Of a DNA stretch of 32,115 nucleotides, positions 1 to 27,548 are shown one piece after another (the stretch's first letter is position 1; every line of letters begins with the position of its first letter). The stretch comes from a virus. The notes under the pieces are model-generated. The model saw only the letters and a list, made by a program, of their open reading frames with translations, was not told the origin of the DNA and made no database searches. The stretch is from the IMG/VR virus record IMGVR_UViG_3300027970_000090, positions 1 to 32,115 of that record. One strand, 5' to 3'. The translations under genes and the position numbers were made by a program.

Positions 1-1214
1 TTCTATATACACAAAAATTTAAAGGAGTTGTTCCAAAATTTATTGATAGATTATATCAAGAACGTGTAAATGCTAAAAATAAAATGATTTCCTTGTCAAA
101 GGAATCTAAAAAAATAAAAGATCCTGCTGAAATATCTAAAATAGAAGAAAAAATCATGGATTTAGATACCATACAAAACGTATATAAATTGATTTTGAAC
201 TCTATTTATGGTGTTTTTGGTCAAAAGTATTCTCCGTTGTTTGATATTGATCACGCAGCAAGCATTACCTTAACAGGTCAGGCAGTAGTTAAACAAGCAT
301 CGGAAATTATTTATGATTATGTAAAAAGTAAAAATATTGAGTGTGAAAAATCTGCTATTTACAAATACGGAGATACGGATAGTTGTTATTTTTCTATTCA
401 ACCTATCTTAGATCATTTTAATGTAGAATTATTAGATAATAAAATCACAGATAAATCATATTCTATTATTAATGAAATTGGGGATTATCTAAATAAGGGA
501 ATTATTGAATGGGCTAAATCTGAACTGAAATCAACAGATCCTAGATTTATTTTTAAACAGGAAGCAATCTGTGATGTTGCAGTCTTCATGGAAAAGAAAA
601 GATACATAATGCATGTATTGGAATCGGAGGGCGTCGTTCCTAAAAAACCTTTTAAATATGTTGGAGTAGAAGTTATTCGATCATCCTTTTCAGATGCGAC
701 AAAAAACTTGATTAAAAATGTAATCGAATCTGCAATTTTATCACAAGACAAAGAAGCTTCTAATAAAATTTTAAAATCTGCCTATCAACAATTCTGTAAT
801 TTTCCAATAACGGATATTGCATTTAGAACCAAAATATCTGATATAGAAAAACAGAAAAGAAAGATAACATCTGATGGAAAAATTGGATTAGGCACACCAA
901 TTCATGCAAAAGGTGCTATACATTTTAATAATATGTTAAAACATTTTGATTTGGAGGGAAGATATGAATCTATTGGTAGTGGAATAAAAATTAAATGGTT
1001 TTATCCGTCTAAAAATTCTTTTAATTTTAATGCAATGGCTTTCTTGGATGAGTTTCCTTCAGAATTTAATCCTATTTTTACTATCAATCATTCAAAAATG
1101 TTTGATAAGAGTGTAACTCCTCCTGTAAAACGTCTTTATGATTGTATAGGTTGGCAGCTTCCACAAATTACTTTAGAAACTCATACAAATTTATTTGATT
1201 TATTGGGAGATTAA
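1..1214 (+). CDS. 43: Family B DNA polymerase (T4 gp43-like), 3' part
   Basis: This is the C-terminal part of the phage replicative DNA polymerase. The gene enters from the left edge; the frame is open from base 3, so the ATG at 84 is internal. The palm domain shows motif B (KLILNSIYG, bases 186-212) and motif C with its two metal-binding aspartates (YGDTDS, bases 366-383). The residues before base 84 (FKGVVPKFIDRLYQERVNAK) also fit the polymerase fingers region. The protein ends in LFDLLGD, which resembles the C-terminal clamp-binding peptide of T4/RB69 gp43 (LFDMFDF), and a gp45-like clamp is encoded at 9210. The exonuclease domain lies outside the window. Family assignment is secure from the motifs; the clamp-peptide role is inferred by analogy. 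Confidence 0.95.
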   Translation, partial: LYTQKFKGVVPKFIDRLYQERVNAKNKMISLSKESKKIKDPAEISKIEEKIMDLDTIQNVYKLILNSIYGVFGQKYSPLFDIDHAASITLTGQAVVKQASEIIYDYVKSKNIECEKSAIYKYGDTDSCYFSIQPILDHFNVELLDNKITDKSYSIINEIGDYLNKGIIEWAKSELKSTDPRFIFKQEAICDVAVFMEKKRYIMHVLESEGVVPKKPFKYVGVEVIRSSFSDATKNLIKNVIESAILSQDKEASNKILKSAYQQFCNFPITDIAFRTKISDIEKQKRKITSDGKIGLGTPIHAKGAIHFNNMLKHFDLEGRYESIGSGIKIKWFYPSKNSFNFNAMAFLDEFPSEFNPIFTINHSKMFDKSVTPPVKRLYDCIGWQLPQITLETHTNLFDLLGD

Positions 1215-1222
1215 TTTATAAT
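1195..1222 (+). promoter_or_regulatory. Putative sigma70-like promoter of thyX
   Basis: TTGATT (1195-1200) and TATAAT (1217-1222) are separated by 16 bases. Counting seven bases from the end of the -10 box puts the start site at 1229, the A of the thyX ATG, so the message would be leaderless. The -35 box lies in the last codons of the polymerase gene. No Shine-Dalgarno sequence is present. In such AT-rich DNA the match alone is weak; the shared geometry with uvsX and the helicase gene supports it. Confidence 0.45.
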
Positions 1223-1228
1223 TTTATC

Positions 1229-2917
1229 ATGGAAGTACAACTAATAAGCATAACACAACCGTTAATCGAAGGATTAATATCAGCAGAAGATCTAATCAGC
1301 TATATCGCTAGGGTTTCCAATCCTAGCAATCAAATGAATACTGAAACTTCTCCAAAATTGTTGAAGTATTTAATTAATCATAAACATTGGTCTCCTTTTG
1401 AACAAGTTTCTTTGACGTTCCAAATTGTCACCTCAAGAGCAATAGCTGCTCAGATTCTTCGACATAGAAGTTTCTGTTTTCAAGAATTTTGCATAACAGG
1501 AGATTCTTTAGTAACCACTATTTTTCCTAAAAATAAAACTGCTCATTATATAACAATAAAAAAACTTTTTGAACGTCAAGATTGGAAATCTTATAAAAAC
1601 ATTTTAGTAAGAACTTTTGATGAAAAGAATAAAACGTTTTGCTATTCTAAAATAAAAGAAGTGTTTAATACTGGAGAAAAACCAGTTTATGAAATAACAT
1701 TACATGATGGCAAAAAAATAAAATGTACAAAAGAACACAAATTTTATACCCCAAATGGGTTTGATACATTAGAAAATGTTGTAGGGTTAGATTCTAAATA
1801 TCATACAATGTCTAAAATTGGTTATATAGGAGTAAATGGTATTCCAGCCCATCAATCATATGAATGGTTAGAATCCGTTAAAATGGAATCTATTAAAAAT
1901 AAAAAGGGATTACCATACATTGCAGAAAAGGCTGGATGTTCCTATCATACAATAAGAAAATGGTTAAAAAAACACGAATTATCATTTTCAAAAAAAGAAG
2001 TAGCTAGTTATAGAGAAATATGGAATAAAAACAAATTTGGATATAAAACATCTCTTGTTTTATCTGAAAGTCATAAAGAAGCTATAAGAAAAGCCAGAAG
2101 CGGACTGAATTCAAATTGGTGGAAGGGAGGATGTGATAGGTCTGATAGGGCTAAAATAGGTGATTGGTGTCAAACTATACGTTTAAAAAAGTTAAAAGAA
2201 TTTAATTACTCTTGTTCAAAGTGTTCATCTACTAAAAAATTAGAACTTGACCATATTATTCCTGTATGGAAAGATAAAGAATTGGCATACAATTATGAAA
2301 ATATTCAAGTTTTATGTTCATCCTGTCACGACAAAAAACATTCACTTGATGGTGATACAAAAATATGGAGACAAAAACATGAGGGGAATAAATTGACTGT
2401 AAAATTCACAAAAATAGAAAAAATCGAATTTTTGGGAAATCAACAAACATTTGATTTGGAAGTTGAAAACAAAAATCATAATTATGTAGCAAATAAAATT
2501 TTAGTTCACAATTCTCAACGTTATTCTACAATTACCGAACTTGAATCTTTTAACATAAGAAAACAAGCAGATAAAAATAGACAATCCAGTAGTGATATGT
2601 TGGATCTTTCCGAAGAGGACTTGGAAAGGTTGAAATCCCACATCGTAGAGGGGGTTTCTTTATATGAAAGTTTGTTAGAAAAGGGTGCAGCAAGGGAATG
2701 TGCAAGAATGTTACTTCCCCTCTGCACTCAGACAAAACTTTATATGACCGGAAACCTAAGAGGATTTATTCACTATGTAGAATTAAGGACTCAGGAGAAT
2801 ACACAAGAAGAGCATAGAGAAATCGCAAGTGCTATTAAAGAATGTTTGATTCAAAACTTTCCAAATACAAGCGAAGCATTAAATTGGAATCTTTCAGTTG
2901 ACAAAACCGAAAATTAA
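1229..2917 (+). CDS. thyX: Flavin-dependent thymidylate synthase ThyX, intein-containing precursor
   Basis: ThyX methylates dUMP to dTMP using FAD, NADPH and methylene-tetrahydrofolate, supplying thymidylate for phage replication. The 562-residue precursor contains a 341-residue intein (residues 88-428); the spliced protein would be about 221 residues, normal for ThyX. The signature RHRxxSxxExSxRY is split: RHRSFCFQEF (78-87) lies before the intein and SQRY (429-432) after it. The third conserved position is Cys83 instead of the usual Ser. The C-extein has RQSS, ARMLLP and TGNLRGFIHYVELR, matching the substrate- and FAD-binding half of the family. It lies between polymerase and a small gene, in the replication block. 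Activity depends on splicing. The ATG at 1229 is the first in frame; no ribosome binding site is visible. Confidence 0.93.
   Translation: MEVQLISITQPLIEGLISAEDLISYIARVSNPSNQMNTETSPKLLKYLINHKHWSPFEQVSLTFQIVTSRAIAAQILRHRSFCFQEFCITGDSLVTTIFPKNKTAHYITIKKLFERQDWKSYKNILVRTFDEKNKTFCYSKIKEVFNTGEKPVYEITLHDGKKIKCTKEHKFYTPNGFDTLENVVGLDSKYHTMSKIGYIGVNGIPAHQSYEWLESVKMESIKNKKGLPYIAEKAGCSYHTIRKWLKKHELSFSKKEVASYREIWNKNKFGYKTSLVLSESHKEAIRKARSGLNSNWWKGGCDRSDRAKIGDWCQTIRLKKLKEFNYSCSKCSSTKKLELDHIIPVWKDKELAYNYENIQVLCSSCHDKKHSLDGDTKIWRQKHEGNKLTVKFTKIEKIEFLGNQQTFDLEVENKNHNYVANKILVHNSQRYSTITELESFNIRKQADKNRQSSSDMLDLSEEDLERLKSHIVEGVSLYESLLEKGAARECARMLLPLCTQTKLYMTGNLRGFIHYVELRTQENTQEEHREIASAIKECLIQNFPNTSEALNWNLSVDKTEN
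1490..2512 (+). other. Intein with HNH homing endonuclease inside ThyX
   Basis: This in-frame insertion has all splicing-block features of a class 1 intein. It begins with Cys88 (CITGDSLV), has a block B TxxH motif (TKEH, residues 167-170), and ends in a block F/G region finishing LVHN with Ser429 as the +1 residue. The middle holds an HNH endonuclease: zinc cysteines at 329/332 and 363/366, and LELDHIIP around His342. It also has a helix-turn-helix-like stretch (YIAEKAGCSYHTIRKWLKKH, 230-249) like the NUMOD DNA-binding modules of homing enzymes. The +1 Ser aligns with Ser88 of Thermotoga maritima ThyX, so the insertion is at the most conserved point of the active-site motif. All expected residues are intact, so both splicing and homing appear functional (inference). 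Confidence 0.93.
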
Positions 2918-2925
2918 TATAAAAT
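2898..2925 (+). promoter_or_regulatory. Putative sigma70-like promoter
   Basis: A perfect TTGACA (2898-2903) is followed after 16 bases by TAAAAT (2920-2925). The predicted start near 2932 leaves only about four bases before the ATG at 2936. The -35 box lies in the end of thyX. Overlapping TATA-rich alternatives make the exact -10 box uncertain. Confidence 0.45.
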
Positions 2926-2935
2926 ATATAAGAAC

Positions 2936-3337
2936 ATGGAAACACAAAATAAATTCATCGCAATTCTAGACACCGTTGGCAGAACTATTATTGGAGAACC
3001 TGACAACACACAAAGCACAGCAGAAATTCTAGCCATTAAGAATCCCGTTATTCTTCATGTCGAGCAGCAAGATCAAATGGGCAGAATGTCTGTAAAACTA
3101 TTTCCAATTATTTTCAGAGAGTTCTTGGGAGACAAGACTAGTGATTCTGTTGCCTTTTATAAAAAGACAAATATCACCGAAACAAATGTTGATGCATTTG
3201 ATTATCGTTTGAAATCTCAGTATGATCAGATGTTTAATAAGAACAATGTATTCACTGCACCGTCATCAACACCATCACAACCTTCATCAGGGGAAAAAAA
3301 CTCTCCTGCCATTATAAATCTATTTGATGAGGCTTAA
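2936..3337 (+). CDS. Small conserved-looking phage protein with putative clamp-binding tail
   Basis: This 133-residue protein is not assigned to a named family. Residues 1-75 alternate hydrophobic and polar positions as in a small beta-barrel (GRTIIGEPDNT, AIKNPVILHVEQ, MSVKLFPIIFREFL). An LSm-like fold is conceivable but unproven. Residues 105-125 are a Ser/Pro/Thr-rich linker, and the chain ends AIINLFDEA. That tail resembles clamp-binding peptides such as the polymerase end (NLFDLLGD) encoded just upstream, so contact with the gp45-like clamp is a possible inference. It sits between thyX and uvsX and is followed by an intrinsic terminator, so it ends a transcription unit. No signal peptide or membrane segment is seen. 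Confidence 0.8.
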   Translation: METQNKFIAILDTVGRTIIGEPDNTQSTAEILAIKNPVILHVEQQDQMGRMSVKLFPIIFREFLGDKTSDSVAFYKKTNITETNVDAFDYRLKSQYDQMFNKNNVFTAPSSTPSQPSSGEKNSPAIINLFDEA

Positions 3338-3355
3338 CATTTTAGTTTGACACAC

Positions 3356-3393
3356 AAAAAAACCTAGAAAGTTTTTGACTTTCTAGGTTTTTT
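3356..3393. terminator. Intrinsic terminator between the 133-aa gene and uvsX
   Basis: AACCTAGAAAG (3361-3371) and CTTTCTAGGTT (3379-3389) form a perfect 11-bp stem with a 7-base loop. Flanking A and T runs extend the pairing and supply a U-tract (TTTTTT, 3388-3393). The A run on the other side could serve antisense transcripts, so it may work in both directions. It ends the transcription unit coming from thyX. Confidence 0.9.
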
Positions 3394-3402
3394 GTTTATA
3401 AT
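3375..3402 (+). promoter_or_regulatory. Putative sigma70-like promoter of uvsX
   Basis: TTGACT (3375-3380) and TATAAT (3397-3402) are 16 bases apart. The predicted start is base 3409, exactly the A of the uvsX ATG, so the mRNA would be leaderless. The -35 box overlaps the loop and 3' arm of the preceding terminator. The -10 region (TATAATACT) could alternatively be read as a late-type element. There is no Shine-Dalgarno sequence. Confidence 0.6.
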
Positions 3403-3408
3403 ACTAAC

Positions 3409-4506
3409 ATGGCTAAAAGAAAAAACGAAACAGACGAAACAGAACTAAGTGGTGACATCAAAGACGCATTCAAAATTCTTGATGATCTAAATCCAGATGC
3501 TCAATTTTTGGATGAAAACACTCTATCCACTGTAAAAGAGTGGGTGGATACTGGATGTATGGCATTAAATGCTATTATATCTGGTTCTTTGTATGGTGGA
3601 ATACCCGTAGGAAGAATAACTGGGTTTGCAGGCCCACAAGCATGTGGAAAAACTTTGATGGTTAATAAAATAATGGCTAATGCACAGAAAAAGGGAATGC
3701 ATGTGGTGTATTTTGACACCGAAAATGCTTTGGACAAGGAAACCGCTGAATCATTGGGATGTGATTCCTCAAAAATCAAGCATTGTCCGATTGAAATTAT
3801 TGAAGAATGTAGGAATCAAATCGTAAAATTCTTAAAATCTGTTGTAGATAATGGTTTGCAAGGCAAAATTATGTTGGCAATCGATTCTTTGGGAAATTTG
3901 ATATCTGCTAGAGAAGCAAAGATCATTGACGATGGTAAGGATTCCGCCGACATGGGTGCAAGAGCAGTTAGTTTGAAAAGCATGCTGAGAGCAATCACAC
4001 ATGCAGCAGCAAAGGCAAACTGTCCGGTTGTTTTTACTAATCATACCTATGACAATCCCGGTGCAATGTACCCAACTCTAGTAAAAAGCCAATCCGGAGG
4101 ATCTGGGCCGCTTTATATGTCCTCTGTATTAGTTCAAATGTCAACCAAGCAAGAAAGAGTCGGTAAATCGGATAATAAAAATGCTTCTGACGAGACAACA
4201 CCACTATCAAAGGATGTTAATGGTCTTACTATGAGAGCACTTACTACTAAAAATCGATTTGTACCTCCATTTTTGGAAGCAGAGATGTATCTAAATTTTA
4301 GAACGGGTATTTCTAAGTACTCTGGACTGTTGGAAATGGCAGAAGGATATAACATTGTTCATAAACAAGGACATAGATATGCGTTGGGAGAAGAAATTCT
4401 TGGATTTTATAAGGACTTTAAAGATAATGATGCAGTTTGGGCAAGAATTCTTCCACTTTTGGAAGAAAAATTGAAAACGGAGTTAAGATTCAACCAAGAA
4501 GAGTAA
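3409..4506 (+). CDS. uvsX: UvsX, RecA-like recombinase
   Basis: UvsX forms filaments on single-stranded DNA and drives strand exchange for recombination-dependent replication and repair. The 365-residue protein (T4 UvsX 391) has the RecA core: Walker A GPQACGKT (residues 75-82), a following strand with YFDTEN near 101-106, and Walker B IMLAIDSLGNL with Asp159. The TNHTY stretch fits the RecA L2/motif region. The N-terminal 40 residues are charged, and the C-terminus is acidic (LRFNQEE). The gene has its own upstream terminator and promoter and is followed by the helicase gene, matching the T4 recombination/replication grouping. The start ATG is six bases after a TATAAT box, with no ribosome binding site. 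Confidence 0.93.
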   Translation: MAKRKNETDETELSGDIKDAFKILDDLNPDAQFLDENTLSTVKEWVDTGCMALNAIISGSLYGGIPVGRITGFAGPQACGKTLMVNKIMANAQKKGMHVVYFDTENALDKETAESLGCDSSKIKHCPIEIIEECRNQIVKFLKSVVDNGLQGKIMLAIDSLGNLISAREAKIIDDGKDSADMGARAVSLKSMLRAITHAAAKANCPVVFTNHTYDNPGAMYPTLVKSQSGGSGPLYMSSVLVQMSTKQERVGKSDNKNASDETTPLSKDVNGLTMRALTTKNRFVPPFLEAEMYLNFRTGISKYSGLLEMAEGYNIVHKQGHRYALGEEILGFYKDFKDNDAVWARILPLLEEKLKTELRFNQEE

Positions 4507-4514
4507 TTTTGTTG

Positions 4515-4543
4515 TTGCCATTTCTAGGAAATAAGCATATGAT
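4515..4543 (+). promoter_or_regulatory. Putative sigma70-like promoter of the helicase gene
   Basis: TTGCCA (4515-4520) and TATGAT (4538-4543) have a 17-base spacer. The predicted start is 4550, the A of the ATG, again leaderless. It lies in the 43-base gap after uvsX. A short inverted repeat TACCA-ACA-TGGTA (4543-4555) spans the start codon; only RNA reading through from uvsX would contain both arms. Confidence 0.5.
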
Positions 4544-4549
4544 ACCAAC

Positions 4550-5935
4550 ATGGTAAAAAGCTTGCCCTTAAATGTTGAACTTTTTGAGAAAATGGTGATC
4601 TATAATGCTCTTATGGATCCCATTTATCTTGAAAGTATTGTAGAACACGCAAAACCTTCGTATTTCAAAGATAAGGATATAAAAATAATCTTTGAATCAT
4701 TGTGTCAGTACTACTCTACATATAATAAAGTTCCAAATATAACCGAATTAAAGGTTCATTTGGTAGAACAAGAAAAAAGAGATGCACTAAAGAATGTTGC
4801 CTTGAGTTTTTCCGGTCTTGATAAAAGTTATGATAGAGATGTTTTATTAAAAAACACTGAAAGGTTCTTAAAAGAAAAGGCAGTATTGAATACTGTGATC
4901 AGAACTTCTGTGGATGTTCAATCCGGAGAAATAGACAGTGCTAAAATCTTGGCAGATTTTGAAAAAGCTTGTGGAATCTCATTAATTGAAAAAATGGGGT
5001 TTGATTATCTAGAATCTGTTGATGAGCATTGCAAAGAACTATTAAAAGTATCAAAAACAATTCCTAGTGGGTGGAATTGGTTAGATGAAAAGATTGGTGG
5101 AGGGTTTTTATCCGAAGGAAGGGCTATATATGTCTTTTATGGTGTTACTAACGTAGGAAAATCGATATTTTTGGGAAATATTGCCTCAAATATCTTAAAT
5201 CAAGATAACACAGTAGTTTTGATCTCTTTGGAAATGTCAGAACAAGTATATGCCAAGCGAATGAGTGCAAACCTCACGCAAATAGCGATGGCAGATCTTA
5301 CCAACAGCATAGAACCGCTTAAAAAAGAGCTTGGTTCTTACAAAACAAAGCATAAGAACGCAAAACTTATCATAAAAGAGTTCCCGCCACAAACAGTAAC
5401 ACCTAATCAGATAAAAGCATATCTAGATAGATTGGTAAAAAAAGGAATAAAACCTGATGTTGTGGTTCTTGATTACTTAAATCTCCTAGCACCTCCAGAA
5501 AAGGGAAAGAATTCATACGAATCAGTCAAAGCAATTACAGAGCAGGTGCGAGCAATGTCTTATCACTTTGAATGTCCTATTATAACCGCTACTCAGGCTA
5601 ATAGAAGCGCATATGGAGAGGCTAATCCTGGTCTTGAAACGATGAGCGAATCCATGGGGCTTTCACATACAGCAGATGCACAGTTTGCAATTTGGTCGGA
5701 AGAAGGAGACGTGGATCTCGGACAGATTCACCTCGGAATTAATAAAAATAGGTTTGGACCTGTTCAATGTCATACCGTATTGGAGTTGGACTATCCTACG
5801 TTAACACTTAGAGATCCAAGTGATGTATCTAAAATGTTTATACCAAAGAAAAAAACCATTCCCGGATCCATTCCAGCAATTCAAAGCATAGCAGATACCT
5901 TGAATGCAATTGAAAATATTGGCAGTGATGATTGA
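4550..5935 (+). CDS. 41: Replicative DNA helicase (T4 gp41 / DnaB-like)
   Basis: This is the hexameric 5'-3' helicase of the phage replisome. The 461-residue protein (T4 gp41 475) has an N-terminal helical domain (about 1-150) like the DnaB N-domain and a RecA-type motor domain. The motor has Walker A GVTNVGKS (198-205), a LISLEMSE motif with the catalytic Glu near 228, Walker B VVVLDYLNLL with Asp308, and the ITATQANRS segment (345-353) of the DnaB family. It is likely loaded by the gp59-like protein at 7158 on gp32-coated DNA. It starts with an ATG placed six bases after a TATGAT box, and its stop overlaps the region where the DHH gene begins. Confidence 0.93.
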   Translation: MVKSLPLNVELFEKMVIYNALMDPIYLESIVEHAKPSYFKDKDIKIIFESLCQYYSTYNKVPNITELKVHLVEQEKRDALKNVALSFSGLDKSYDRDVLLKNTERFLKEKAVLNTVIRTSVDVQSGEIDSAKILADFEKACGISLIEKMGFDYLESVDEHCKELLKVSKTIPSGWNWLDEKIGGGFLSEGRAIYVFYGVTNVGKSIFLGNIASNILNQDNTVVLISLEMSEQVYAKRMSANLTQIAMADLTNSIEPLKKELGSYKTKHKNAKLIIKEFPPQTVTPNQIKAYLDRLVKKGIKPDVVVLDYLNLLAPPEKGKNSYESVKAITEQVRAMSYHFECPIITATQANRSAYGEANPGLETMSESMGLSHTADAQFAIWSEEGDVDLGQIHLGINKNRFGPVQCHTVLELDYPTLTLRDPSDVSKMFIPKKKTIPGSIPAIQSIADTLNAIENIGSDD

Positions 5936-9987: not shown

Positions 9988-10311
9988 ATGTCAAAAAACA
10001 GAGTAACAATATGCAGCTACTTCATTAAACGTCTTCGTGACAGTGGATATGTAGTAGATAAACTATTCAATGATTATGCAGATTCCGATCCACGTAGTTG
10101 GACGGCAATTGTAGATCCTACGGTGGCTTCTATATTAGTAACTTGCTATAATAATCACAATGATTTAGGTGAAGAATATTTTGAAATGCATGATGGGGGG
10201 CAATTCATTCCAGAGCGATTTAAAATTAAAACAAGTTCTATCGAGGTTATTGTTGAATATCTTGTAAAATTTAATATCAACAACAAAGCCTCGACATATG
10301 CAGGAGCGTAA
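9988..10311 (+). CDS. Small uncharacterised protein downstream of the clamp
   Basis: This 107-residue protein is not assigned. It looks like a compact globular fold: a basic N-terminal helix (ICSYFIKRLRDSGYVVDKLF), DPRSWTAIVDPTVASILVTC in the middle, EMHDGGQFIPERFKIKTSS, and a final helix (IEVIVEYLVKFNINNKAS). It follows the clamp after 28 AT-rich bases that include AATAAATA (9969-9976), a possible late-type element. The next gene overlaps its end by 14 bases. Its place between the clamp and the tail genes could suit either a regulatory or a virion role; nothing in the sequence decides this. Confidence 0.8.
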   Translation: MSKNRVTICSYFIKRLRDSGYVVDKLFNDYADSDPRSWTAIVDPTVASILVTCYNNHNDLGEEYFEMHDGGQFIPERFKIKTSSIEVIVEYLVKFNINNKASTYAGA

Positions 10312-10702
10312 AAAACCTTCAAGGAAAAAAAAAGAAACAATAACACCATCATTATCCTCTACACCAAATGTAGAGGATAATGAATCTTGCATTAAGAATG
10401 TAAGAGATGTAGTTTTTTCTTCTATGAATGACATAGAGCTTCAAAAGGCTCTAGACAATTTTCTTAAGAAAAATATTAAAGATAAAAATTTAATAGTAAG
10501 AGATTTGAGCATTCTTCGCAACGTTATAACAGAGTATCTCGATGCTTATATATTGTTTGGATATAATTTAGAAGGAGAGAGGGTAATTGTTCAACAGTTT
10601 AAAACCCCAAAGGACCGAGATGCTATAATGGACTTCTTAAAAACTATATTTTTAAGACAACAGCATGAAAATTTTTTGGATGATGAGGGATACGAGGATT
10701 AA
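10298..10702 (+). CDS. Uncharacterised basic-then-acidic protein containing a perfect DNA hairpin
   Basis: This 134-residue protein is not recognised. The first 13 residues are strongly basic (MQERKKPSRKKKE), followed by a Ser/Thr/Pro stretch encoded by the inverted repeat at 10349-10383. Residues 40-125 are helical (NVRDVVFSSMNDIELQKALD; LIVRDLSILRNVITEYLDAY), and the end is acidic (NFLDDEGYED). A basic start plus an acidic hydrophobic end recalls small transcription cofactors such as T4 gp33, but no convincing similarity was found. The ATG overlaps the previous stop by 14 bases; there is a six-base gap to the next gene. Confidence 0.78.
   Translation: MQERKKPSRKKKETITPSLSSTPNVEDNESCIKNVRDVVFSSMNDIELQKALDNFLKKNIKDKNLIVRDLSILRNVITEYLDAYILFGYNLEGERVIVQQFKTPKDRDAIMDFLKTIFLRQQHENFLDDEGYED
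10349..10383. repeat. Perfect 15-bp inverted repeat inside a coding region
   Basis: Arms 10349-10363 (TCATTATCCTCTACA) and 10369-10383 (TGTAGAGGATAATGA) are exact complements around the loop CCAAA. It lies near the 5' end of the 134-residue gene and would form a stable RNA hairpin. No T-tract follows on the + strand, so it is not a normal terminator. It could be an attenuator, a processing site or a protein-binding site. Confidence 0.9.
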
Positions 10703-16004: not shown

Positions 16005-16622
16005 ATGTCAAAAACCATAATTTACCCGCCAATTGGAATATCTGGTGCCGCATTATCTGGAAAAGATACTCTATGCTCATATCTTATTTACAATTTTGCT
16101 CTTTTATACAATACAAAAGCCAAAAGATGTTCAATTGCAGGTGATATTATAAGAAAAGATCTACAAGAAATGATTTTTAGTAAGATAGATGCTGATATAG
16201 ACATAAATGATCCCTTACAAAAGGAAAGTGTTCGTCCTCTGATGGTTGAATATGGTAGATATATGAGAAATCAGACAAACGGTAGGTATTTTATTGAAAT
16301 TTTGAACAAAAGTAAACAATTTGGCAAGAATTTTATCCCAATTATACCAGATATTCGCTATAATGAGTATGAAAAGGACGAATTGTATTGGTTGAAAGAA
16401 GAAAAAAAAGGAATTTTAATATTTTTAGAACGAGATGACATTCCTCCTGCCAATAAATTTGAAAAAAATAATAATATTTCTCTAAAAAAGGCAGCTGATA
16501 TGGTTATAGAAATACAAAATTTTTATAAAGCAGAGGATTATGCTGATTTTATACAAGATTATGTTGATAAAATTATTACCACTTACCAACAGGGCATTTC
16601 TCAGCCCTTAGATAGGTCTTAA
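16005..16622 (+). CDS. 1: Deoxynucleoside monophosphate kinase (T4 gp1-like)
   Basis: The enzyme phosphorylates dNMPs to dNDPs for phage DNA synthesis. The 205-residue protein has an N-terminal P-loop GAALSGKDT (residues 14-22) after a hydrophobic strand (IIYPPIGIS), in the form used by the dNMP kinase family (GKDT rather than GKST). Later features include an arginine-rich lid-like region (RPLMVEYGRYMRNQTNGRYF) and PDIRYNEYEKDEL. T4 gp1 is 241 residues, so this is slightly short. It is the only + strand gene inside the tail block, diverging from the hydrophobic protein gene and overlapping the zinc-binding gene by 47 bases tail to tail, which suggests later insertion. Substrate specificity cannot be read from the sequence. 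Confidence 0.78.
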   Translation: MSKTIIYPPIGISGAALSGKDTLCSYLIYNFALLYNTKAKRCSIAGDIIRKDLQEMIFSKIDADIDINDPLQKESVRPLMVEYGRYMRNQTNGRYFIEILNKSKQFGKNFIPIIPDIRYNEYEKDELYWLKEEKKGILIFLERDDIPPANKFEKNNNISLKKAADMVIEIQNFYKAEDYADFIQDYVDKIITTYQQGISQPLDRS

Positions 16623-16887
16623 CAGCCATATTACATCCGCATTTTCCGCATCTTTCAGAGCCAGAATCAAAAAATTCACACCCTCTGCATATGGATAAAC
16701 GTGACTTTGCTTGTTCAGAATCAGTTTTTAATGCGTTTCCTGCCATTACACTTGCTGCATTATTTACTATGCTTCTTCCTAAGTTAACTGCCATCTTAGT
16801 TGCTGATGGCATTTGCGGCTTATTTGATGATTGTAGCTGCTGTATTCTATTGCTTTGTAGACTTCTTAGTAATGAATTTTTGTCCAT
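16576..16887 (-). CDS. Small zinc-binding protein in the baseplate cluster
   Basis: This 103-residue protein has a basic, Gln/Ser-rich N-terminal half and a C-terminal cysteine cluster: Cys67, Cys70, Cys80, Cys83, Cys85 and Cys98 in SICRGCEFF, ERCGKCGCNM and KCPVGKW. The pattern suits a zinc-ribbon-type knuckle. Function is unknown; location next to the hub gene suggests a tail assembly factor or minor virion protein. Start: an upstream TTG at 16905 is possible in frame, but the ATG at 16887 follows a late-type GATAAATACT element and lies one base after the hub stop, so it is preferred. The last 47 bases, which encode Cys98 and the PVGKW end, overlap the dNMP kinase gene on the other strand. 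Confidence 0.82.
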   Translation of the reverse strand: MDKNSLLRSLQSNRIQQLQSSNKPQMPSATKMAVNLGRSIVNNAASVMAGNALKTDSEQAKSRLSICRGCEFFDSGSERCGKCGCNMAVKTYLRAEKCPVGKW

Positions 16888-16888
16888 A

Positions 16889-18586
16889 TTAGTATTTATC
16901 GTCAAGTTCTTCCCACCATTTACTGAAAATATCTATTTTAGTGCAGATTACATCTGTTGTGTATGATTCTTTATCAAAATAATGTACAATTTTGGTTATT
17001 AACCATTGTCCTAAAAATTTATCGTCAAATGGATTTTTATCTGCCGTGGAAGAATCACGATCAACGAATAAAAACTTACCCGGAGTCCTAATCGTAAGCC
17101 CCGTTGCTTTAAAGTAAAGTGCTTGATTTAACATTAAAAAATCTTTTAACATTGAAATCATACTCATATCCGTAGGGAAAAATGTTCTTTGGATAAAACA
17201 ATTAGATGTCATCAATCCACTACTTTTGGTTTTGTTAAAATTAAACAATAATTGTGCTTCATTGTTCTTGTTTTGTTGACTAAAGCTATGCAATCCTTCC
17301 TTTGCGATATTTTTCATATTTTCCAACACATCTTTAGCAGTATTATTTGTATAAAATACATTAAATTGATTTTGAGAAAAATTATAATTATGAACTGGTT
17401 TATTTGTAAGGTTCAAATCATCAATAGGAACCATAGAAACAAATTTATAATTATTTATCATTGAAGCTATTCCAGATTGAAAATTTCTTATCACAGAATC
17501 TTCATTTTGATTATACGGTGCTCTTGCAAAGTAAGGACTAGAATTCGTGATTTCTTGATTGTCATTTATAACAATTCTTTCTACTTGATTATTATTAGCT
17601 TCTTGAATAATTTTTTTTAAAGAAATTAATTTAAATCTTTTACCACCTACTCTATCGTATCTATCCAAGTCTAAAAATGCTGGAGAATTGTCTTCTGATT
17701 TAAATAAACTATAAACATAATTTAAATCTTCTAATGCATTTCTATTGGCGGGAGAGGTATATAATACAGATCCTTCATAGTTGGGTTCTCCAGAAGAACA
17801 TCCCGAATCCCAATTATCAAGATCAAAAATGTTTATAGATTGATCGGGATCGTCTATAAATTTTCCTCCTTTGGAACTACCCACTTTAATACCATTTGAG
17901 CTAATTCCATCAGAACTATTGGATGCTGCTGTTTGTATTATAGATTTTATAGCATCACTCACTGGCATACTTCTTTCTGTATCCTTTGCTAGTATATTCC
18001 CTTTATTAGGACCATACAATGCAGTAGACCATTCTATGTTTCGTTCCAATAATATTTGATATCTTTCATCCCAAAAATAAAATTTTCTTGTTTTTTTAGT
18101 AGCAGAATTAGTTTTTATATCTTCAATGTCATAAACAACAAAATTATAAGCCATTTCCCACTGTTCTGGGGGTAATTGTGAATTTGAAGAAGAATTGTTT
18201 GCTGTTGTTATTGGATATATCTTAATGTTTATTTTATTTCTTCCATCTGTTCTAAATAAAAACGGAGCATCTATTTTTTCTTGATTTTTTGCAGGAATAG
18301 AGCCTCTTTCTATCATTTCATAATCAGTAGACAATGTTATCCAACCTTTTGTATTCCAATCATCCAAATTTTCTTCTATTGCAAGACCATCAACAAAGAA
18401 AAATGGAACTGCAAATGGTTTAAAATTTTTTATTTGATTATACATCCAAAGTTCAATATAAAATAATTGACCTCCAATTTGATGTACAAATCTATTGTCC
18501 AAGTTGGATCCACCAGCAGTATCGTTAGAATTTAATGCTGGATTGCTTACTTCTGCATTTGTAGATGGAACTTGAGTTACTGGCAT
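16889..18586 (-). CDS. Baseplate hub protein (probably gp27-like)
   Basis: This 565-residue protein is probably the central hub connecting tail tube and spike. The C-terminal region (about 490-565) has the hub-type pattern of strands (TGLTIRTPGKFLFVDRD; FLGQWLITKIVHYF; SYTTDVICTKIDIFSKWWE), as in gp27 and phage late-control D proteins. The N-terminal half has strand-rich segments (GQLFYIELWMYNQIKNFKPF; ITLSTDYEMIERGS), consistent with tube-like barrels. A Gly/Ser/Asp linker lies at about 220-280. T4 gp27 is 391 residues, so this version is enlarged. It follows the 199-residue tube-fold gene after three bases. Its last codons double as a promoter element for the next gene. Assignment is by pattern and neighbourhood. 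Confidence 0.65.
   Translation of the reverse strand: MPVTQVPSTNAEVSNPALNSNDTAGGSNLDNRFVHQIGGQLFYIELWMYNQIKNFKPFAVPFFFVDGLAIEENLDDWNTKGWITLSTDYEMIERGSIPAKNQEKIDAPFLFRTDGRNKINIKIYPITTANNSSSNSQLPPEQWEMAYNFVVYDIEDIKTNSATKKTRKFYFWDERYQILLERNIEWSTALYGPNKGNILAKDTERSMPVSDAIKSIIQTAASNSSDGISSNGIKVGSSKGGKFIDDPDQSINIFDLDNWDSGCSSGEPNYEGSVLYTSPANRNALEDLNYVYSLFKSEDNSPAFLDLDRYDRVGGKRFKLISLKKIIQEANNNQVERIVINDNQEITNSSPYFARAPYNQNEDSVIRNFQSGIASMINNYKFVSMVPIDDLNLTNKPVHNYNFSQNQFNVFYTNNTAKDVLENMKNIAKEGLHSFSQQNKNNEAQLLFNFNKTKSSGLMTSNCFIQRTFFPTDMSMISMLKDFLMLNQALYFKATGLTIRTPGKFLFVDRDSSTADKNPFDDKFLGQWLITKIVHYFDKESYTTDVICTKIDIFSKWWEELDDKY
16893..16900 (-). promoter_or_regulatory. Late-type promoter octamer before the zinc-protein gene
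   Basis: GATAAATA on the - strand, followed by CTAAT and the ATG at 16887, matches the T4 late consensus TATAAATA at seven of eight positions, including the common downstream CT. In T4 geometry transcription would begin at the A of the ATG. It is embedded in the last codons and TAA of the hub gene. Confidence 0.55.
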
Positions 18587-19190: not shown

Positions 19191-21047
19191 TTAAAAAACT
19201 ATAGTCGGATGATAGGTGTCCATAGAAGACTTATCCATTTCATCAGCCTTTAAAGGCAACATACGATCTGGACCATCACTTTCCAATAACCATGTAGTAA
19301 GAGCCGCCCTATCATCTGAATATAAATCAAATCCAGAGGCTGTATCCATGTCACCAACATATGAAAATGGAGTATTTACGAAAGGTTTTCTAACAATTGT
19401 TTGTCCTCCTCCTATTAATAAAGGACTATTTTTAATAATCTCCTTATTATCTGAAATTGGAAAAATTTTCATCGGCCTACCTTGATCGTCTATGTCTAAA
19501 ATATTAAAATATTTTCCAACCAATGAAGGATCAAGAATAAATAATGCCCAAATAAGTCCAAACACTCTATCATCTAAATATTTATCAGATTTTTTTGAAT
19601 ATGTAAAATTTGGAAGTCTAATGAAATTGTCTATTTCTAATAATGTTTCAATATCATTTAATTTCACTGCCTTTAAACTATTAACCCAATATCTAAAATT
19701 TGTTATTCCTTTATATCTGGTATTTGTATGATTGTGTATACCAAATCTATTAGCATTGTTATAATGCTTACTAAATCCCTCAAAATGATAGGAAACAACA
19801 TTTTCATAGTTGTGAGTTTGGCACAAAACATCTAAAATTTGTTGACCATTGTTATTATTTTCAACAAGAATCGGAGGTCTTCCCCAATCCTGTAAAATTC
19901 CCATCAAACGAGTTCCAAAATGAAATGGATTTATATTATTTGAAGAAAAAAGAGCTACTTGTTGAATATCCTGTAAATTTGATACGTCTAATATCTGTGC
20001 AACTGAATTTGATCTTCCAATTCCTTCTCCAACGTCAACTCCTATGACATAGAAACTTTCCGGATTGGGCAATTTAAATACTTGATAGGCTCCATCTTCC
20101 AAAGATAATATAGGTTCTGAACAACTAGCCTTTAATTCGGCTAGATATTCTTCATCGATAACGCCCTTTCCAGGTTCGTGGAATTTATTGGCATATTCTT
20201 GATCAAAATCATCTTTAGATCCCATGAGAGCCAGTGTTTTTCTTTTCCACTCTTCATCTCGATCTGGAACATCCCACCAATTAACAATTTCTAAGTGCCA
20301 TTCACTGTTTTCTTCTTGTGCGCTTTTATAAAGTTCATAAAATTTATTATCAGTTCCATTTGGAGTACTAATAACAACAATTTGCGACCTTTTCATCGAT
20401 GAAATAATTGGAATAGCAGACTTCCACAATTCTTTCATCAAATCATTAGGACAATGAGCCATCTCATCAATAATCAAAAGATTACTTGTAGTTCCGCGAG
20501 GTCCAGATGATGATGTTGTACTAACAGTTATTGCTGAATCGTTTCCAAGATTAAAACCATCTTTTCTCCAAGATTTTATAGGAGGTTTTAAGTATATAGG
20601 AAGTTGTTCATATGCCATTTTAATTCTAGCAAATATTTCCTTAGCAGTTGCTTCTTTATTTGCTACAATTGTTATTCGCTTATCAGATTGAAAACATACT
20701 AACCATAATGCATAAATAGTTATTGTTGTAGTTTTTCCGCTTTGTCTTGAGCTAAGAATAACATTAAATCTATTTGATTTAAATGCCTTCAGTAGAGTTT
20801 TTTGATACTTATAAAGTTCTATTTTCCTTTTACCATCTTCGGTTATTATGTAAAAATGACTTTCTGCAAAATGCAAAATACTTTTGACGCAAAGCCTAAG
20901 CTCTGCTTTCATGTCATCCGTCCATTTAAACAATGCATCCTTACGAAGGATGTTTTCGTTTCCTTGATAGAACTTTCCGTCTACAAGAATATCATCTATA
21001 TCTAAATCATCTAATGAATTTTCTTCTACTTTCTTTTTTCTGGGCAT
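19191..21047 (-). CDS. 17: Terminase large subunit (T4 gp17-like)
   Basis: The terminase pumps DNA into the prohead and cuts the concatemer. The 618-residue protein (T4 610) has an ATPase domain with the classic motif SSRQSGKT (99-106), Walker B LLIIDEMAH with Asp194 and catalytic Glu195, and coupling motif STPNG (228-231). The C-terminal RNase H-like nuclease has VIGVDVG (Asp338), ILVENNN (Glu396) and YLDDRVFG (Asp492/493), matching the T4 catalytic acidic triad. All key residues are present. It lies within the baseplate cluster, unlike T4 where 17 sits beside 18 and 19. It has its own late-type promoter element in the 30-base gap upstream. No small terminase subunit is recognised in the window. 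Confidence 0.96.
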   Translation of the reverse strand: MPRKKKVEENSLDDLDIDDILVDGKFYQGNENILRKDALFKWTDDMKAELRLCVKSILHFAESHFYIITEDGKRKIELYKYQKTLLKAFKSNRFNVILSSRQSGKTTTITIYALWLVCFQSDKRITIVANKEATAKEIFARIKMAYEQLPIYLKPPIKSWRKDGFNLGNDSAITVSTTSSSGPRGTTSNLLIIDEMAHCPNDLMKELWKSAIPIISSMKRSQIVVISTPNGTDNKFYELYKSAQEENSEWHLEIVNWWDVPDRDEEWKRKTLALMGSKDDFDQEYANKFHEPGKGVIDEEYLAELKASCSEPILSLEDGAYQVFKLPNPESFYVIGVDVGEGIGRSNSVAQILDVSNLQDIQQVALFSSNNINPFHFGTRLMGILQDWGRPPILVENNNNGQQILDVLCQTHNYENVVSYHFEGFSKHYNNANRFGIHNHTNTRYKGITNFRYWVNSLKAVKLNDIETLLEIDNFIRLPNFTYSKKSDKYLDDRVFGLIWALFILDPSLVGKYFNILDIDDQGRPMKIFPISDNKEIIKNSPLLIGGGQTIVRKPFVNTPFSYVGDMDTASGFDLYSDDRAALTTWLLESDGPDRMLPLKADEMDKSSMDTYHPTIVF

Positions 21048-21053
21048 TAGGAA

Positions 21054-21061
21054 TACTTATA
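21054..21061 (-). promoter_or_regulatory. Late-type promoter octamer before the terminase gene
   Basis: TATAAGTA on the - strand lies six bases (TTCCTA) before the ATG at 21047. It matches the T4 late consensus TATAAATA at seven of eight positions. T4 spacing would start RNA one base before the ATG. A weak 5-bp inverted repeat (21044-21048 with 21074-21078) encloses it and includes part of the start codon. Confidence 0.6.
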
Positions 21062-21077
21062 AAAATATATAAAAATG

Positions 21078-21434
21078 CTATCTATTGATTTGACTATTCA
21101 ATTCTGAAATAATAGAAGAAACATACTTTGCTTTTAATATTTTCAATTCCGTTCCATTTTCTGGCATTTTTACTGGATTTTGAATTTGATTATAAGAACA
21201 TACCAACCACCACAAATCCATAGTATTATAATATTTATGTGATATTAAATGCCATGTATCATTATATGTAGTATAATAAGAATCTTCTACGTCTGAATTA
21301 TTTGCTGGAAATAAATTAATAGCTCTTAATAAATTATAAAATTTAAAATCATTATTATCGTTATAGATATTAAAAAAATTTTCATATCTATACATTGAAA
21401 TATTTGATAAATCTGTAAAGGAATTATGTTTCAT
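21078..21434 (-). CDS. 53: Baseplate wedge protein (T4 gp53-like)
   Basis: gp53 locks baseplate wedges around the hub. This 118-residue protein (T4 196) carries the LysM-like signature of the family: YNDTWHLISHKYYNTMDLWW followed by LVCSYNQIQNPVKMPENGTE. The first 50 residues include aromatic and Asp/Asn-rich stretches (YRYENFFNIYNDNNDFKFYN). It is shorter than T4 gp53, apparently a minimal version. It lies between the gp48-like gene and the terminase gene, with nine bases to the former. The ATG is at 21434; no ribosome binding site is visible. Confidence 0.8.
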   Translation of the reverse strand: MKHNSFTDLSNISMYRYENFFNIYNDNNDFKFYNLLRAINLFPANNSDVEDSYYTTYNDTWHLISHKYYNTMDLWWLVCSYNQIQNPVKMPENGTELKILKAKYVSSIISELNSQINR

Positions 21435-22445: not shown

Positions 22446-24743
22446 TTAATTCCTAAAAGTGTTCGAGTAATTTCTTGCATTATATTTTTGTCTATATTCA
22501 CGCACTTCATCTCTTTCTCCAGAAACACTTCCCTTAGAATTGCCACCAGTTATAACAGTTGAACTTCCTTGATTATCAGATCCGTTTGATATTGCTCTTC
22601 TTAGTTCTTCTATGCTTTCGGGAGAAAGACTGGTTGTTTTTGGAGTTGGTGCTGGAATTGGCAGTGCTTCTCTCAAATCTATATTAGGAGGAGGAGTAAC
22701 AGGTGTTGGAGTTCCTATGGGAATCCATTTTTTGGGTGTTTCTACCCCAGTTGGACGATTAGAATCCACTTCAACACCATCTACTGTGTAAAATTGATCG
22801 TTTTCTCCACCCATTTCATTATTTTTACTATCATCCGCCATTGTAGATGCAGATCCATTTGAATCCACTTCAACACCATCTACTGCGTAAAATTGATCGT
22901 TTTCTCCACCCATTTCATTATTTTTACTATCATCCGCCATTGTAGATGCAGATCCATTTTTGTTAAAATTTTGATTGGTTAAAGCTTGTTCCGATGCTTG
23001 TTGTTTTGATTCTTGATCTTGTTCGTCTAAAGAATCTAAATACATACTAAGAGGAATTTGTATAAATGCCATTTCCGGACCTAATAGATATAAAAGATTG
23101 CTAGAAGCAGAAGCCAATCGTAACCACATTCCTTTATAATCCCCGTCCATTCCTCTTTTAATAGCCATTCCCAATTCATAAAGACCACCAAATAATGGAA
23201 TTCTTTTTAAAAACGTTCCCAAAGCACCTCTTCCGAATAATGCTCCTATTTTAGTAAGATTTCCTAGTTTAGATGCTACGGCACTGCTTGCAGAACCAAT
23301 ACCTCTTAAGATCGTTCCCATTATGCTAGAAGATTGTGCAACCGCTTTAATAGCATTTGTTCCTCTTGTGGCAAGAGCAGCAACAGAACCTGCAAGAGCA
23401 GCACTTCTTGTAACTAATCCCTTGGGTAAAATATTTAAAATAGCAGAACCAGCAGATGATGCAACTTTAGAAACTCCCGAACCAATTGCAGCCCATCTAG
23501 GTGCTACTTTTTTTGTTATTTGGCTACCAACTGCTACCGCACGTTTACCTGCACGTTTTTTCATTAAAAAAGCACCCAACGAACCAACACCTAATCCACC
23601 ATATAAAAACAGGTTTTTATAAAAATCCATTCCTCCCGGTTTATCAACTCCCATTGCGGAAGAAGCAACGTCAATAGCATCACTGGCAACTTTGGTACCA
23701 GTTAATTTATCTATATATTTTCCAATAGATTCTCCGAAAAATCCCAAAGCCAATCCTGCACCGCCTATTGCCAATGAAAAGCTTGAAAGAGGAAGTATTA
23801 GCTTACGAAGTATAAACCTAGCAAACGTGCCAACAATCGCTAGCAATCCTACGGTTATTCCTAAACCCGCAAGTCCTGCCAATGCCATTCCTCCTCCACC
23901 AGAACCGCTTGGTTTATCAGAAATTTCTTTGAGTTTTTTATCGCTTTGATTTAAAGTTTCATCAATAGCTTGTAAAATTTTTTGTTGGTCTTTAGCATTT
24001 ATTTTTAAAGAATTAAAAATTTCTGAAAGAGATTTTGGATCTAAAGTAACTTTAAGATTTCCATATGGATCTTTTTTATACAATTCTTTGCTAAATGGAT
24101 CTATTTGTTGTTTTTTTTCGATAGATTTTTTATAAAAATCCATCATAACATCCAGAGATAATCCAGTTTTTTCAGCGATTGTAAATAGCTTTGATTGATC
24201 TATAGTAAGCTTATCAGATTGATTGCTTATTAATTGATCAAATCTTTCTAATATTTTTTCTAATGCTGAATTAGAGGAATTATTATCAGATACTTCATCT
24301 GATTTATTTATATTTTCTTGTCTTTGTACAAGATTATTTTGAATATTTTCCGGAAATCCTAACGGATTTGTTATTTTTCTTATAGTTTCTTCATTGATTT
24401 TATCTAAACTATTTTTTATTTCATTCGAAACTTCTAAACTTTTAGATAAAATTTCTTTTCTTATAACATCTAGGGGAGTAGTATCAAGATTTTCAGACGA
24501 AATTCCTAATAATTTGCTTATTAATTCTTTATAATTTGTTTTTTTTGCTTCATCTGCAAGTGATTCTTTTGCCTTATATGCAATATTTGCAGCTTCGGCG
24601 TGTGTATTTTGGAATGAATCTTGAATATTTTTTGATGTTGAGGATGCTCCTAATAAAAGCTCTAAAAATATTTTAGAGTCTATAGACCCAGCAACAGAAA
24701 TTCCTTGATTTTTTAGAAAATTTTCTAACTCTTCCATGCTCAT
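22446..24743 (-). CDS. Putative tail tape measure protein
   Basis: The tape measure sets tail length and is ejected with the DNA. This 765-residue protein (T4 gp29 590) has a helical, charged N-terminal region (about 1-275). Then come glycine-rich hydrophobic segments (285-345: MALAGLAGLGITVGLLAIVG; LSSFSLAIGGAGLALGFFGE) and further Ala/Gly-rich helices (375-565) capable of entering membranes. The C-terminus is low-complexity. Residues 596-628 and 629-661 are near-identical 33-residue repeats. The gene follows two gp26-like genes and precedes the tube-cap gene, the usual place for a tape measure. It has its own late-type promoter, and an inverted repeat pairs its start codon with upstream sequence. 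The ATGs at residues 1 and 3 are both possible. Confidence 0.72.
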   Translation of the reverse strand: MSMEELENFLKNQGISVAGSIDSKIFLELLLGASSTSKNIQDSFQNTHAEAANIAYKAKESLADEAKKTNYKELISKLLGISSENLDTTPLDVIRKEILSKSLEVSNEIKNSLDKINEETIRKITNPLGFPENIQNNLVQRQENINKSDEVSDNNSSNSALEKILERFDQLISNQSDKLTIDQSKLFTIAEKTGLSLDVMMDFYKKSIEKKQQIDPFSKELYKKDPYGNLKVTLDPKSLSEIFNSLKINAKDQQKILQAIDETLNQSDKKLKEISDKPSGSGGGGMALAGLAGLGITVGLLAIVGTFARFILRKLILPLSSFSLAIGGAGLALGFFGESIGKYIDKLTGTKVASDAIDVASSAMGVDKPGGMDFYKNLFLYGGLGVGSLGAFLMKKRAGKRAVAVGSQITKKVAPRWAAIGSGVSKVASSAGSAILNILPKGLVTRSAALAGSVAALATRGTNAIKAVAQSSSIMGTILRGIGSASSAVASKLGNLTKIGALFGRGALGTFLKRIPLFGGLYELGMAIKRGMDGDYKGMWLRLASASSNLLYLLGPEMAFIQIPLSMYLDSLDEQDQESKQQASEQALTNQNFNKNGSASTMADDSKNNEMGGENDQFYAVDGVEVDSNGSASTMADDSKNNEMGGENDQFYTVDGVEVDSNRPTGVETPKKWIPIGTPTPVTPPPNIDLREALPIPAPTPKTTSLSPESIEELRRAISNGSDNQGSSTVITGGNSKGSVSGERDEVREYRQKYNARNYSNTFRN
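22762..22959. repeat. 99-bp tandem duplication in the tape-measure gene
   Basis: Bases 22762-22860 and 22861-22959 are two adjacent 99-bp copies differing at one base (TGTG against TGCG), giving Thr or Ala in the protein. Being a multiple of three, the duplication keeps the frame and doubles a 33-residue acidic segment containing NGSASTMADD and FYxVDGVEVDS. Near identity at synonymous positions means it is recent or maintained by recombination. Confidence 0.95.
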
Positions 24744-24770
24744 ATAGAATACTTAATCTAAAATGAGCAT
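24736..24770 (-). promoter_or_regulatory. Start-codon hairpin with a late promoter in its loop (tape-measure gene)
   Basis: On the - strand, ATGCTCAT (24770-24763) and ATGAGCAT (24743-24736) are exact complements around a 19-base loop. The second arm begins with the tape-measure ATG. The loop contains ATTAAGTA (24757-24750), a late-type octamer six bases before the ATG. Transcripts from upstream genes would carry both arms and hide the start codon; RNA begun at the octamer would lack the first arm. T4 gene e uses this logic. The pairing is directly seen; the regulatory role is inference. Confidence 0.6.
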
Positions 24771-26571: not shown

Positions 26572-27525
26572 TTACTTAATAGTTTTTCTAACTAACATGC
26601 TATTTTTATAACCCGGATCATAAGTAAATTTAGGAGCAGCAGGAACAACCGAAAACCCTCTTGTAGTTACAATTCCATTATTATCTTTAGTGACAGCAGT
26701 ACCCGTTTCAAAAATAGGAGAACCATCAGCACCGTAAAGAGTATTTGTATATTTAAATCCTCCAAGTTCTCGGTTAGAACTGATATCTACCTGAGATTTT
26801 TCGGTTATATTTTCTCCACTAGCCATATTATTATAATCCTCCGCAGCAATACTATAAGAATCATATACAAAATCAACACTTATAGTTTGTAAAGAAGGAG
26901 AATTATAACCATCGGAATAACCTCCTACGCTTACAGGTGCTATATTATAGAATCTTATTAGTTTTCTTTTAAGCGGTTTGGTATATGCTCCTGCTTTTCC
27001 CATAAAAATTACATCTAATTTATTGGCTTTTACGTTATATTGAGGATCTCTTCTGGTTACAAATCCAAAATGTCCAACCAAAATCATCCAAGGACGAATA
27101 ACAAAATCAACAAAAGAAGCATTGGTTTCATTAAAAGTTATAGTCAATTTTCCAAATGGTTTTCTGCTACTCATAGTAACCGGAGCTTGAAATCCCGCAT
27201 ATTCTAAACCCGCATTAGAAGCATTTATACTATCGCTTGGAATTGATATTTCAGAAGCAAAAACACATGCTAAAAATTCATGACCCTGTTGATATTCATC
27301 AGATATTAAAGATTTAACAACAGAATCTTGTATGCCCCAAGAATCTTCAAAGCTAGAGCCGCTTTCGTATCTCCTAACATTATCGATAAAAGATTTTTTT
27401 AAAGCAAGTATGTCTTTAAATGGTATGGTTAAAAACCACTGACTCCCAACCGCTATAGAACTAGGCCATTTACTTATTATATCTAAATAATAAGGTATTG
27501 GACCGTTTAAATTTTCAAAAGCCAT
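26572..27525 (-). CDS. Second, larger tail tube-like protein
   Basis: This 317-residue protein has tube-fold features. An N-terminal helix and strand region includes GSQWFLTIPFKD, and a central stretch contains LTITFNETNASFVDFVIRPW and ILVGHFGFVTRRDPQYNVKA. Then come LDVIFMGKAGAYTKPLKRKL and a strand with ISVDFVYDSYSI. The end (about 230-317) is a looser region with Gly, Asn and Thr. It directly follows the main tube gene and has its own late-type promoter. It could be the T4 gp54-type tube initiator, or an additional tube or baseplate layer. No close match to gp54 sequence is evident, so the role is open. Confidence 0.6.
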   Translation of the reverse strand: MAFENLNGPIPYYLDIISKWPSSIAVGSQWFLTIPFKDILALKKSFIDNVRRYESGSSFEDSWGIQDSVVKSLISDEYQQGHEFLACVFASEISIPSDSINASNAGLEYAGFQAPVTMSSRKPFGKLTITFNETNASFVDFVIRPWMILVGHFGFVTRRDPQYNVKANKLDVIFMGKAGAYTKPLKRKLIRFYNIAPVSVGGYSDGYNSPSLQTISVDFVYDSYSIAAEDYNNMASGENITEKSQVDISSNRELGGFKYTNTLYGADGSPIFETGTAVTKDNNGIVTTRGFSVVPAAPKFTYDPGYKNSMLVRKTIK

Positions 27526-27548
27526 ATCAAATACTTATGTATGATATG
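27523..27548 (-). promoter_or_regulatory. Start-codon hairpin with a late promoter in its loop (tube-like gene)
   Basis: On the - strand, CATATCA (27548-27542) and TGATATG (27529-27523) are exact complements around a 12-base loop. The ATG at 27525 lies in the second arm. The loop contains CATAAGTA (27539-27532), a late-type octamer six bases before the ATG. The arrangement repeats that at the tape-measure gene: read-through RNA from sheath and tube would sequester the start, while RNA from the octamer would not. Confidence 0.55.

Follow-up and report, generated by a model that had tools for sequence, protein, structure and literature searches.

Early and late promoters set close to start codons, and probable leaderless expression, in an uncultivated lake phage distantly related to T4

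The uvsX region and its promoters

The DNA analysed here (the window) is the entire IMG/VR record IMGVR_UViG_3300027970_000090, 32,115 bases at 32% GC, from an uncultivated lake phage distantly related to T4. At the DNA level the window has no near match among annotated phages, and no close isolate was found; the phage does resemble the Far-T4 phages (Roux et al. 2015, PMC4360716), a group of T4-like lake phages that is likewise uncultivated and has PhoH and gp23, and in that paper we found no analysis of promoters or translation signals. Near the start of the window the end of a DNA polymerase gene is followed by thyX, a gene for a 133-residue protein, uvsX and a gene for a replicative helicase, each behind a two-box promoter that stops just short of the ATG (Table 1). 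On the opposite strand, the tail tube gene and four others are preceded by a different box, of the T4 late type.

Table 1. Coordinates of genes, promoters and other signals in the window
Feature	Position	Strand	Basis or details
thyX early promoter	1195-1222	+	TTGATT 1195-1200, 16 nt, TATAAT 1217-1222, 6 nt, ATG 1229
thyX, flavin-dependent thymidylate synthase split by an intein with HNH endonuclease	1229-2917	+	Pfam Thy1 6e-42, Intein_splicing 9e-18, HNH 4e-10
Early promoter of the 133-residue gene	2898-2925	+	TTGACA 2898-2903, 16 nt, TAAAAT 2920-2925, 10 nt, ATG 2936
133-residue protein gene	2936-3337	+	conserved C-terminal INLFDE-type tail
Intrinsic terminator hairpin and T-run, overlapping the uvsX promoter	3357-3393	+	terminator scan, 17 pairs
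uvsX early promoter	3375-3402	+	TTGACT 3375-3380, 16 nt, TATAAT 3397-3402, 6 nt, ATG 3409
uvsX recombinase	3409-4506	+	Pfam RecA 3e-22; tblastn to annotated UvsX
Helicase early promoter	4515-4543	+	TTGCCA 4515-4520, 17 nt, TATGAT 4538-4543, 6 nt, ATG 4550
DnaB-type replicative helicase (gp41-like)	4550-5935	+	Pfam DnaB_C 3e-26
Late-type box TAAATA	16893-16898	-	at -11 of gene 16576-16887
Late-type box TAAGTA	21054-21059	-	at -12 of gene 19191-21047
Late-type box TAAGTA	24750-24755	-	at -12 of gene 22446-24743
Late-type box TAAGTA	27532-27537	-	at -12 of gene 26572-27525
Late-type box TAAATA	28135-28140	-	at -12 of tail tube gene 27562-28128

The four early promoters had been picked out in an earlier note made from the window's letters, and reading the sequence again places them at the same sites, with a gap between -10 box and ATG of exactly 6 nt in three and 10 nt in the fourth. 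In a promoter scan covering the initial 12 kb on both strands, all four come out within the first seven entries. Promoter-like strings as such are no more numerous there than in shuffled sequence (50 against a mean of 58.1 +/- 8.0), so that it is the position of these promoters, not their existence, that is unusual. The geometry before thyX is preserved in the relatives L011, L013, L016 and L077, the promoter of the 133-residue gene is found at the same place in many relatives, and the helicase gene has orthologous promoters in relatives too. Since the thyX -35 box overlaps the final codons of the DNA polymerase gene (C-terminus NLFDLLGD, then stop), its conservation may be due in part to the coding constraint on that C-terminus.

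A few other features of these genomes deserve a brief mention. The closest large relative, G001, has an intein-free thyX of 239 aa, unlike that of the window. Rfam identifies no known RNA element in the window, and within gene 10298-10702 there is an inverted repeat of 16 pairs (10349-10383, minus strand) that looks like a terminator on that strand. The relative G004 carries a tmRNA (L122:5194-5653, minus strand; Rfam RF00023, E 6e-56) with the predicted tag ADEEMLLAA. Among 39 proteins scanned from the 16-32 kb region of G001 (L089, L090) there are four of the YopX family, two matches to LCIB-type beta carbonic anhydrases and one product of an IS605 OrfB-type transposase gene.

Promoter position and Shine-Dalgarno use across the relatives

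Searching IMG/VR with UvsX yielded 80 loci, several of them in records of 160-230 kb. Six large genomes were read fully or to 200 kb: four relatives of 163-212 kb, with UvsX identities of 99% (G001), 85-86% (G003 and G004) and 67% (G005), and two outgroups, G011 and G012, at 50-53%. Genes were called from codon usage and the first ATG, an ATG-only procedure that misses or misplaces some starts; internal in-frame ATGs of the same genomes, along with shifted positions, served as controls, and the counts given for the four relatives are sums over G001, G003, G004 and G005.

In the window, 3 of the 31 starts have a two-box promoter in front of them at a gap of 5-7 nt, as against none of the 163 internal ATGs (p=0.004). 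The earlier note had made its reading depend on such a spacing bias extending through the rest of the genome, and the bias is indeed present in the relatives: the same arrangement of sigma70 boxes stands before 67/878 starts versus 10/2932 internal ATGs in the four relatives, a roughly 20-fold enrichment (p from 1e-6 to 1e-11 per genome), and before 38/505 versus 7/1868 in the outgroups. The TTGACA- and TATAAT-like hexamers lie 15-19 nt apart, at a position common to the genomes, and unsupervised de novo k-mer counts place the peak of TTGACA at -36 to -34 from the ATG. The gap in the relatives is mostly 6-7 nt and extends up to about 11 nt.

The second class of promoter is a T4-late-like TAARTA box. 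At -14 to -11 it was counted at 160/878 starts and at 5/2932 internal ATGs of the four relatives, with the outgroups behaving in the same way, and the k-mers TAAATA and TAAGTA peak de novo at -13/-12. The box logo has a -10 element like T4's TATAAATA (here TAARTA) and no -35 element, which is the make-up of a T4-type late promoter. Consistent with this, all six phages examined encode a gp55-like late sigma (phmmer 5e-12 to 1e-8), matched in three of the six by the PHROG 'late sigma transcription factor' profile at 1e-26 to 1e-31. These gp55-like proteins are without the C-terminal SLDFLYE tail of T4 gp55. The 133-residue protein, which has no match in Pfam or PHROG, ends in a near-invariant [VI][IV][NK]LFDE in nearly all of its orthologues, a tail that resembles the sliding-clamp-binding C-termini of T4 gp43 (SLDFLFG) and gp55 (SLDFLYE); judging from this sequence, it is possibly a gp33-like late co-activator.

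Shine-Dalgarno (SD) motifs, scored as four-mers at -15 to -7 before the start, are at background in all six phages (48/878 starts versus 200/2932 internal ATGs in the four relatives), and from the sequences it seems that SD-led initiation has been abandoned. With an SD-free interval at -15 to -7 and a TANNNT-like box above background some 10-12 nt before the start, these genes have the characters by which leaderless genes are recognized: TANNNT about 12 nt before the start marks such genes in bacteria (Zheng et al. 2011, PMC3160421). The two promoter classes with a common leaderless geometry that the earlier note had seen in the window are thus a property of the four relatives and both outgroups. 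Its further claim, that with standard spacing +1 falls on the A of the first three ATGs, is too precise for the family, in which predicted leaders of 0 to about 5 nt for both classes fit better and need not always be zero. Strict leaderlessness is not universal, because some relatives either have a gap of 9-11 nt or lack the uvsX promoter, with uvsX then directly adjoining the neighboring gene.

Not every gene has a promoter of its own. Using position weight matrices with thresholds set to a 1% false-positive rate per class on internal ATGs, one or both classes were found at 329/877 genes of the four relatives, or about 37% (with a range of 35-44%); the matrices were trained on the genomes that they scored, so this share is an estimate, while the simple consensus counts above are independent of training. 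Genes of G001 with a promoter follow a median upstream gap of 37 nt, as against 3 nt for those without, and 61% of the promoter-less genes with a codirectional upstream neighbor lie within 12 nt of it. Such short gaps suggest that the promoter-less genes are probably translated by coupling or reinitiation.

When other phages were subjected to the same analysis, T4 presented a very different picture, with SD motifs at 135/247 starts and neither two-box promoters (0/247) nor late boxes (0/247) in the leaderless position. Cr30 (SD at 93/234 starts), phiM12 and S-SSM5 resemble T4 in that SD is present and promoters in the leaderless position are not the pattern, and Rhodothermus phage RM378 has little of either signal. 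TAARTA clusters at -31 to -40 in T4, -21 to -40 in S-SSM5 and -31 to -50 in Cr30, as opposed to -11 to -20 in G001 (57 of 108 counted); in T4, Cr30, phiM12 and the cyanophages the late box is mostly at -21 to -50, so that the motif is about 20 nt nearer to the ATG in the clade described here. The late promoters of T4 and of these phages have in common the TAAATA core, the absence of a -35 box and an encoded gp55 homolog; they differ in that G is allowed in the core here, the box is at -12 instead of T4's -20 to -40, and the SD leader is absent.

The cultured T4-like Pelagibacter phage HTVC008M (NC_020484) is intermediate. It has the late box at -14 to -11 at 18/182 starts and at 0/907 internal ATGs, mostly as ATAAATAGTA and before baseplate and other genes, but it retains SD at 79/182 starts and is without the leaderless early class (1/182). 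For pelagimyophages, a published attempt to find late promoters reportedly failed to yield usable ones (PMC7029224). Leaderless phage mRNAs are already known: most middle and late transcripts of the large lytic Thermus thermophilus phage phiYS40 are reported to be leaderless (PMC3594737). In our tests, however, phiYS40 has a weaker -10 signal at the start (a TATAAT-like box in position at 12/157 starts versus 10/486 internal ATGs) and keeps SD (60/157), whereas the lake phages have SD at background level, extend the arrangement to early genes and pair the late class with a gp55-type sigma. Similarly, in the TA-led genes of Actinobacteria and Deinococcus-Thermus (PMC3160421) a -10 box about 12 nt before the start replaces the SD motif, but they are usually a minority (about 20-40%) beside SD-led genes; here an SD class is undetected and the -35 boxes are clear. 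What is distinctive, then, is the inclusion of early genes presumably read by the host polymerase together with the loss of SD use.

A terminator merged with the uvsX promoter

The most unusual single element encountered is the one preceding uvsX, where the -35 box TTGACT lies in the loop and 3' arm of the terminator hairpin of the preceding gene. The merged form was observed at uvsX loci L009-L066; across 20 distinct relatives the two arms of its stem vary in concert whereas TTGAC is retained, and in 13 of 22 uvsX loci (with the ATG of L016 and L019 taken from the sequence itself) TTGAC lies at a distance of 34 nt to the ATG. Elsewhere an ordinary terminator precedes a separate promoter, some relatives have neither, and in some uvsX directly abuts the preceding gene. 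The structure has the stable stem-loop, the T-run and the compensatory stem changes of an intrinsic terminator. Among 20 distinct hairpins from relatives, pairing is kept at every stem position through A-T, G-C, C-G and T-A pairs (stem position +5, for example, is C-G in 9, A-T in 5, G-C in 5 and T-A in 1), and the mean minimum free energy of -21.9 kcal/mol for the hairpins' own arms weakens to -11.6 kcal/mol when arms are swapped between relatives.

A composite hairpin is not a general promoter feature, since only uvsX, where the element is present, has a strong (about -20 kcal/mol) hairpin centered on the -35 box; the remaining strong early promoters of G001, G003 and G005 all lack one of comparable strength. 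In the subclade of L059, L062, L063, L065 and L066 a second stable hairpin (-17 to -21 kcal/mol), with no obvious T-run, extends over the helicase promoter from the -35 box to the -10 box. Our literature search found no paper on a terminator merged with a -35 box or on leaderless T4-like phages, although such a search is not proof of absence.

Leaderless expression, its alternatives and the host

Taken together, these observations make it highly probable that the phages express their genes from early and late promoters set on the start codons, without leaders and without SD motifs. Early genes (thyX, the 133-residue gene, uvsX, the helicase gene and others) would be transcribed from canonical TTGACA/TATAAT promoters by unmodified host sigma70-type holoenzyme, and late genes from a TAARTA box read by a phage gp55-type sigma; in both classes the RNA would begin somewhere between the A of the ATG and a point about 5 nt upstream. 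As SD leaders are absent, leaderless initiation is to be expected, presumably by 70S ribosomes or 30S subunits on the 5'-terminal AUG, and genes without a promoter, mostly a few nucleotides behind the previous gene, would depend on coupling or reinitiation. In the case of uvsX, where the hairpin loop holds the -35 box and the spacer holds the T-run, the merger may prevent read-through RNA from burying the AUG behind a leader. A bolder version, in which all of this clade among the T4-like phages has dropped SD and runs its entire program, the earliest host-transcribed genes and the virion proteins alike, on AUG-starting mRNAs, with composite terminator-promoters blocking read-through leaders, is plausible but somewhat more doubtful than probable.

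It could be argued that the promoters are real but minor, and that most proteins are made on longer, polycistronic mRNAs through coupling or standby entry of ribosomes, leaderless initiation being a side product. The roughly 63% of genes with no detectable promoter of their own, the tight packing of such genes in G001 and the relatives in which uvsX abuts the preceding gene are all compatible with this. On the other hand, most relatives have a strong terminator before uvsX, merged or in front, that would cut read-through, and the first genes after strand switches are also SD-free, which implies that at least their starts are leaderless or very short-leadered; we regard this account as unlikely, though not negligible. 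Somewhat less likely again is the idea that the uvsX hairpin is not a terminator but regulates the promoter, as an operator bound by protein or as a DNA cruciform. A perfect inverted repeat centered near the -35 box would suit such a role, as would the helicase hairpin of five relatives with its lack of a clear T-run. However, the repeat varies widely in sequence without losing its pairing, and the stem is followed by a T-run, as in intrinsic terminators; relatives in which the merged form is lacking carry an ordinary terminator and, immediately after it, a separate promoter.

Alternatively, the TA-rich boxes might be a non-SD translation signal, similar to the A/T start context of Bacteroidota, on transcripts that start further upstream. 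All of the genomes are AT-rich, with a general A/T enrichment at -6 to -1, and most genes have no strong promoter match, but a ribosome site has no use for TTGACA at -35 and a spacer of 16-17 nt. Furthermore, TAARTA matches the T4 late promoter, read by a gp55-type sigma, T4, Cr30 and cyanophages have the same box farther upstream, along with SD leaders, and in G001 the box-bearing genes are those that follow the larger gaps; this explanation is very improbable. The idea that common AT-rich strings have lined up by chance in a genome of 32% GC, for which one could cite only that promoter-like strings do not exceed those of shuffles, is refuted by the internal-ATG and shifted-position controls, with their roughly 20-fold enrichment at starts, and by T4, which at similar GC shows none, and can for practical purposes be dismissed.

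If expression is leaderless as we propose, it is fair to infer, as the earlier note suggested, that the promoter geometry may say something about translation in the host, because the early genes would depend on host polymerase and ribosomes in unmodified form; the host would then be one that translates leaderless mRNAs well. A search of 84,980 bacterial and archaeal genomes found no UvsX relative, and a major capsid protein profile found only a contig with 31% identity, in a Saprospiraceae bin. That bin was rejected as a lead to the host, the whole of it having no bias in promoter-ATG geometry (81 versus 68 in the control). A Pfam scan of the G001 proteins revealed no metabolic gene indicative of the host. 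Genes for ribosomal protein bS21 are present in G003 (21101-21226), G004 (70324-70455) and HTVC008M, but their absence from G001, G005, G011 and G012 rules out bS21 as a common cause, and no homolog of IF3, a possible tuner of initiation, was found in the phages.

Most work on leaderless translation has dealt with a small number of bacteria and with single phage genes, of which lambda cI is one. A clade-wide leaderless program, if real, would suggest a host lineage in fresh water with ribosomes that start translation chiefly on leaderless mRNAs, and the combination of sigma70-like promoters with efficient leaderless initiation would narrow the range of possible hosts. It would also provide a natural comparison, in which the promoter set has shifted together with the mode of initiation, between this clade and T4 or the cyanophages, with their upstream late box and SD leader. 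In such genomes, gene callers that expect SD motifs may set starts wrongly. Finally, there is a direct prediction for HTVC008M, which is cultured and carries the late version of the arrangement: its late transcripts would have the leaderless geometry.
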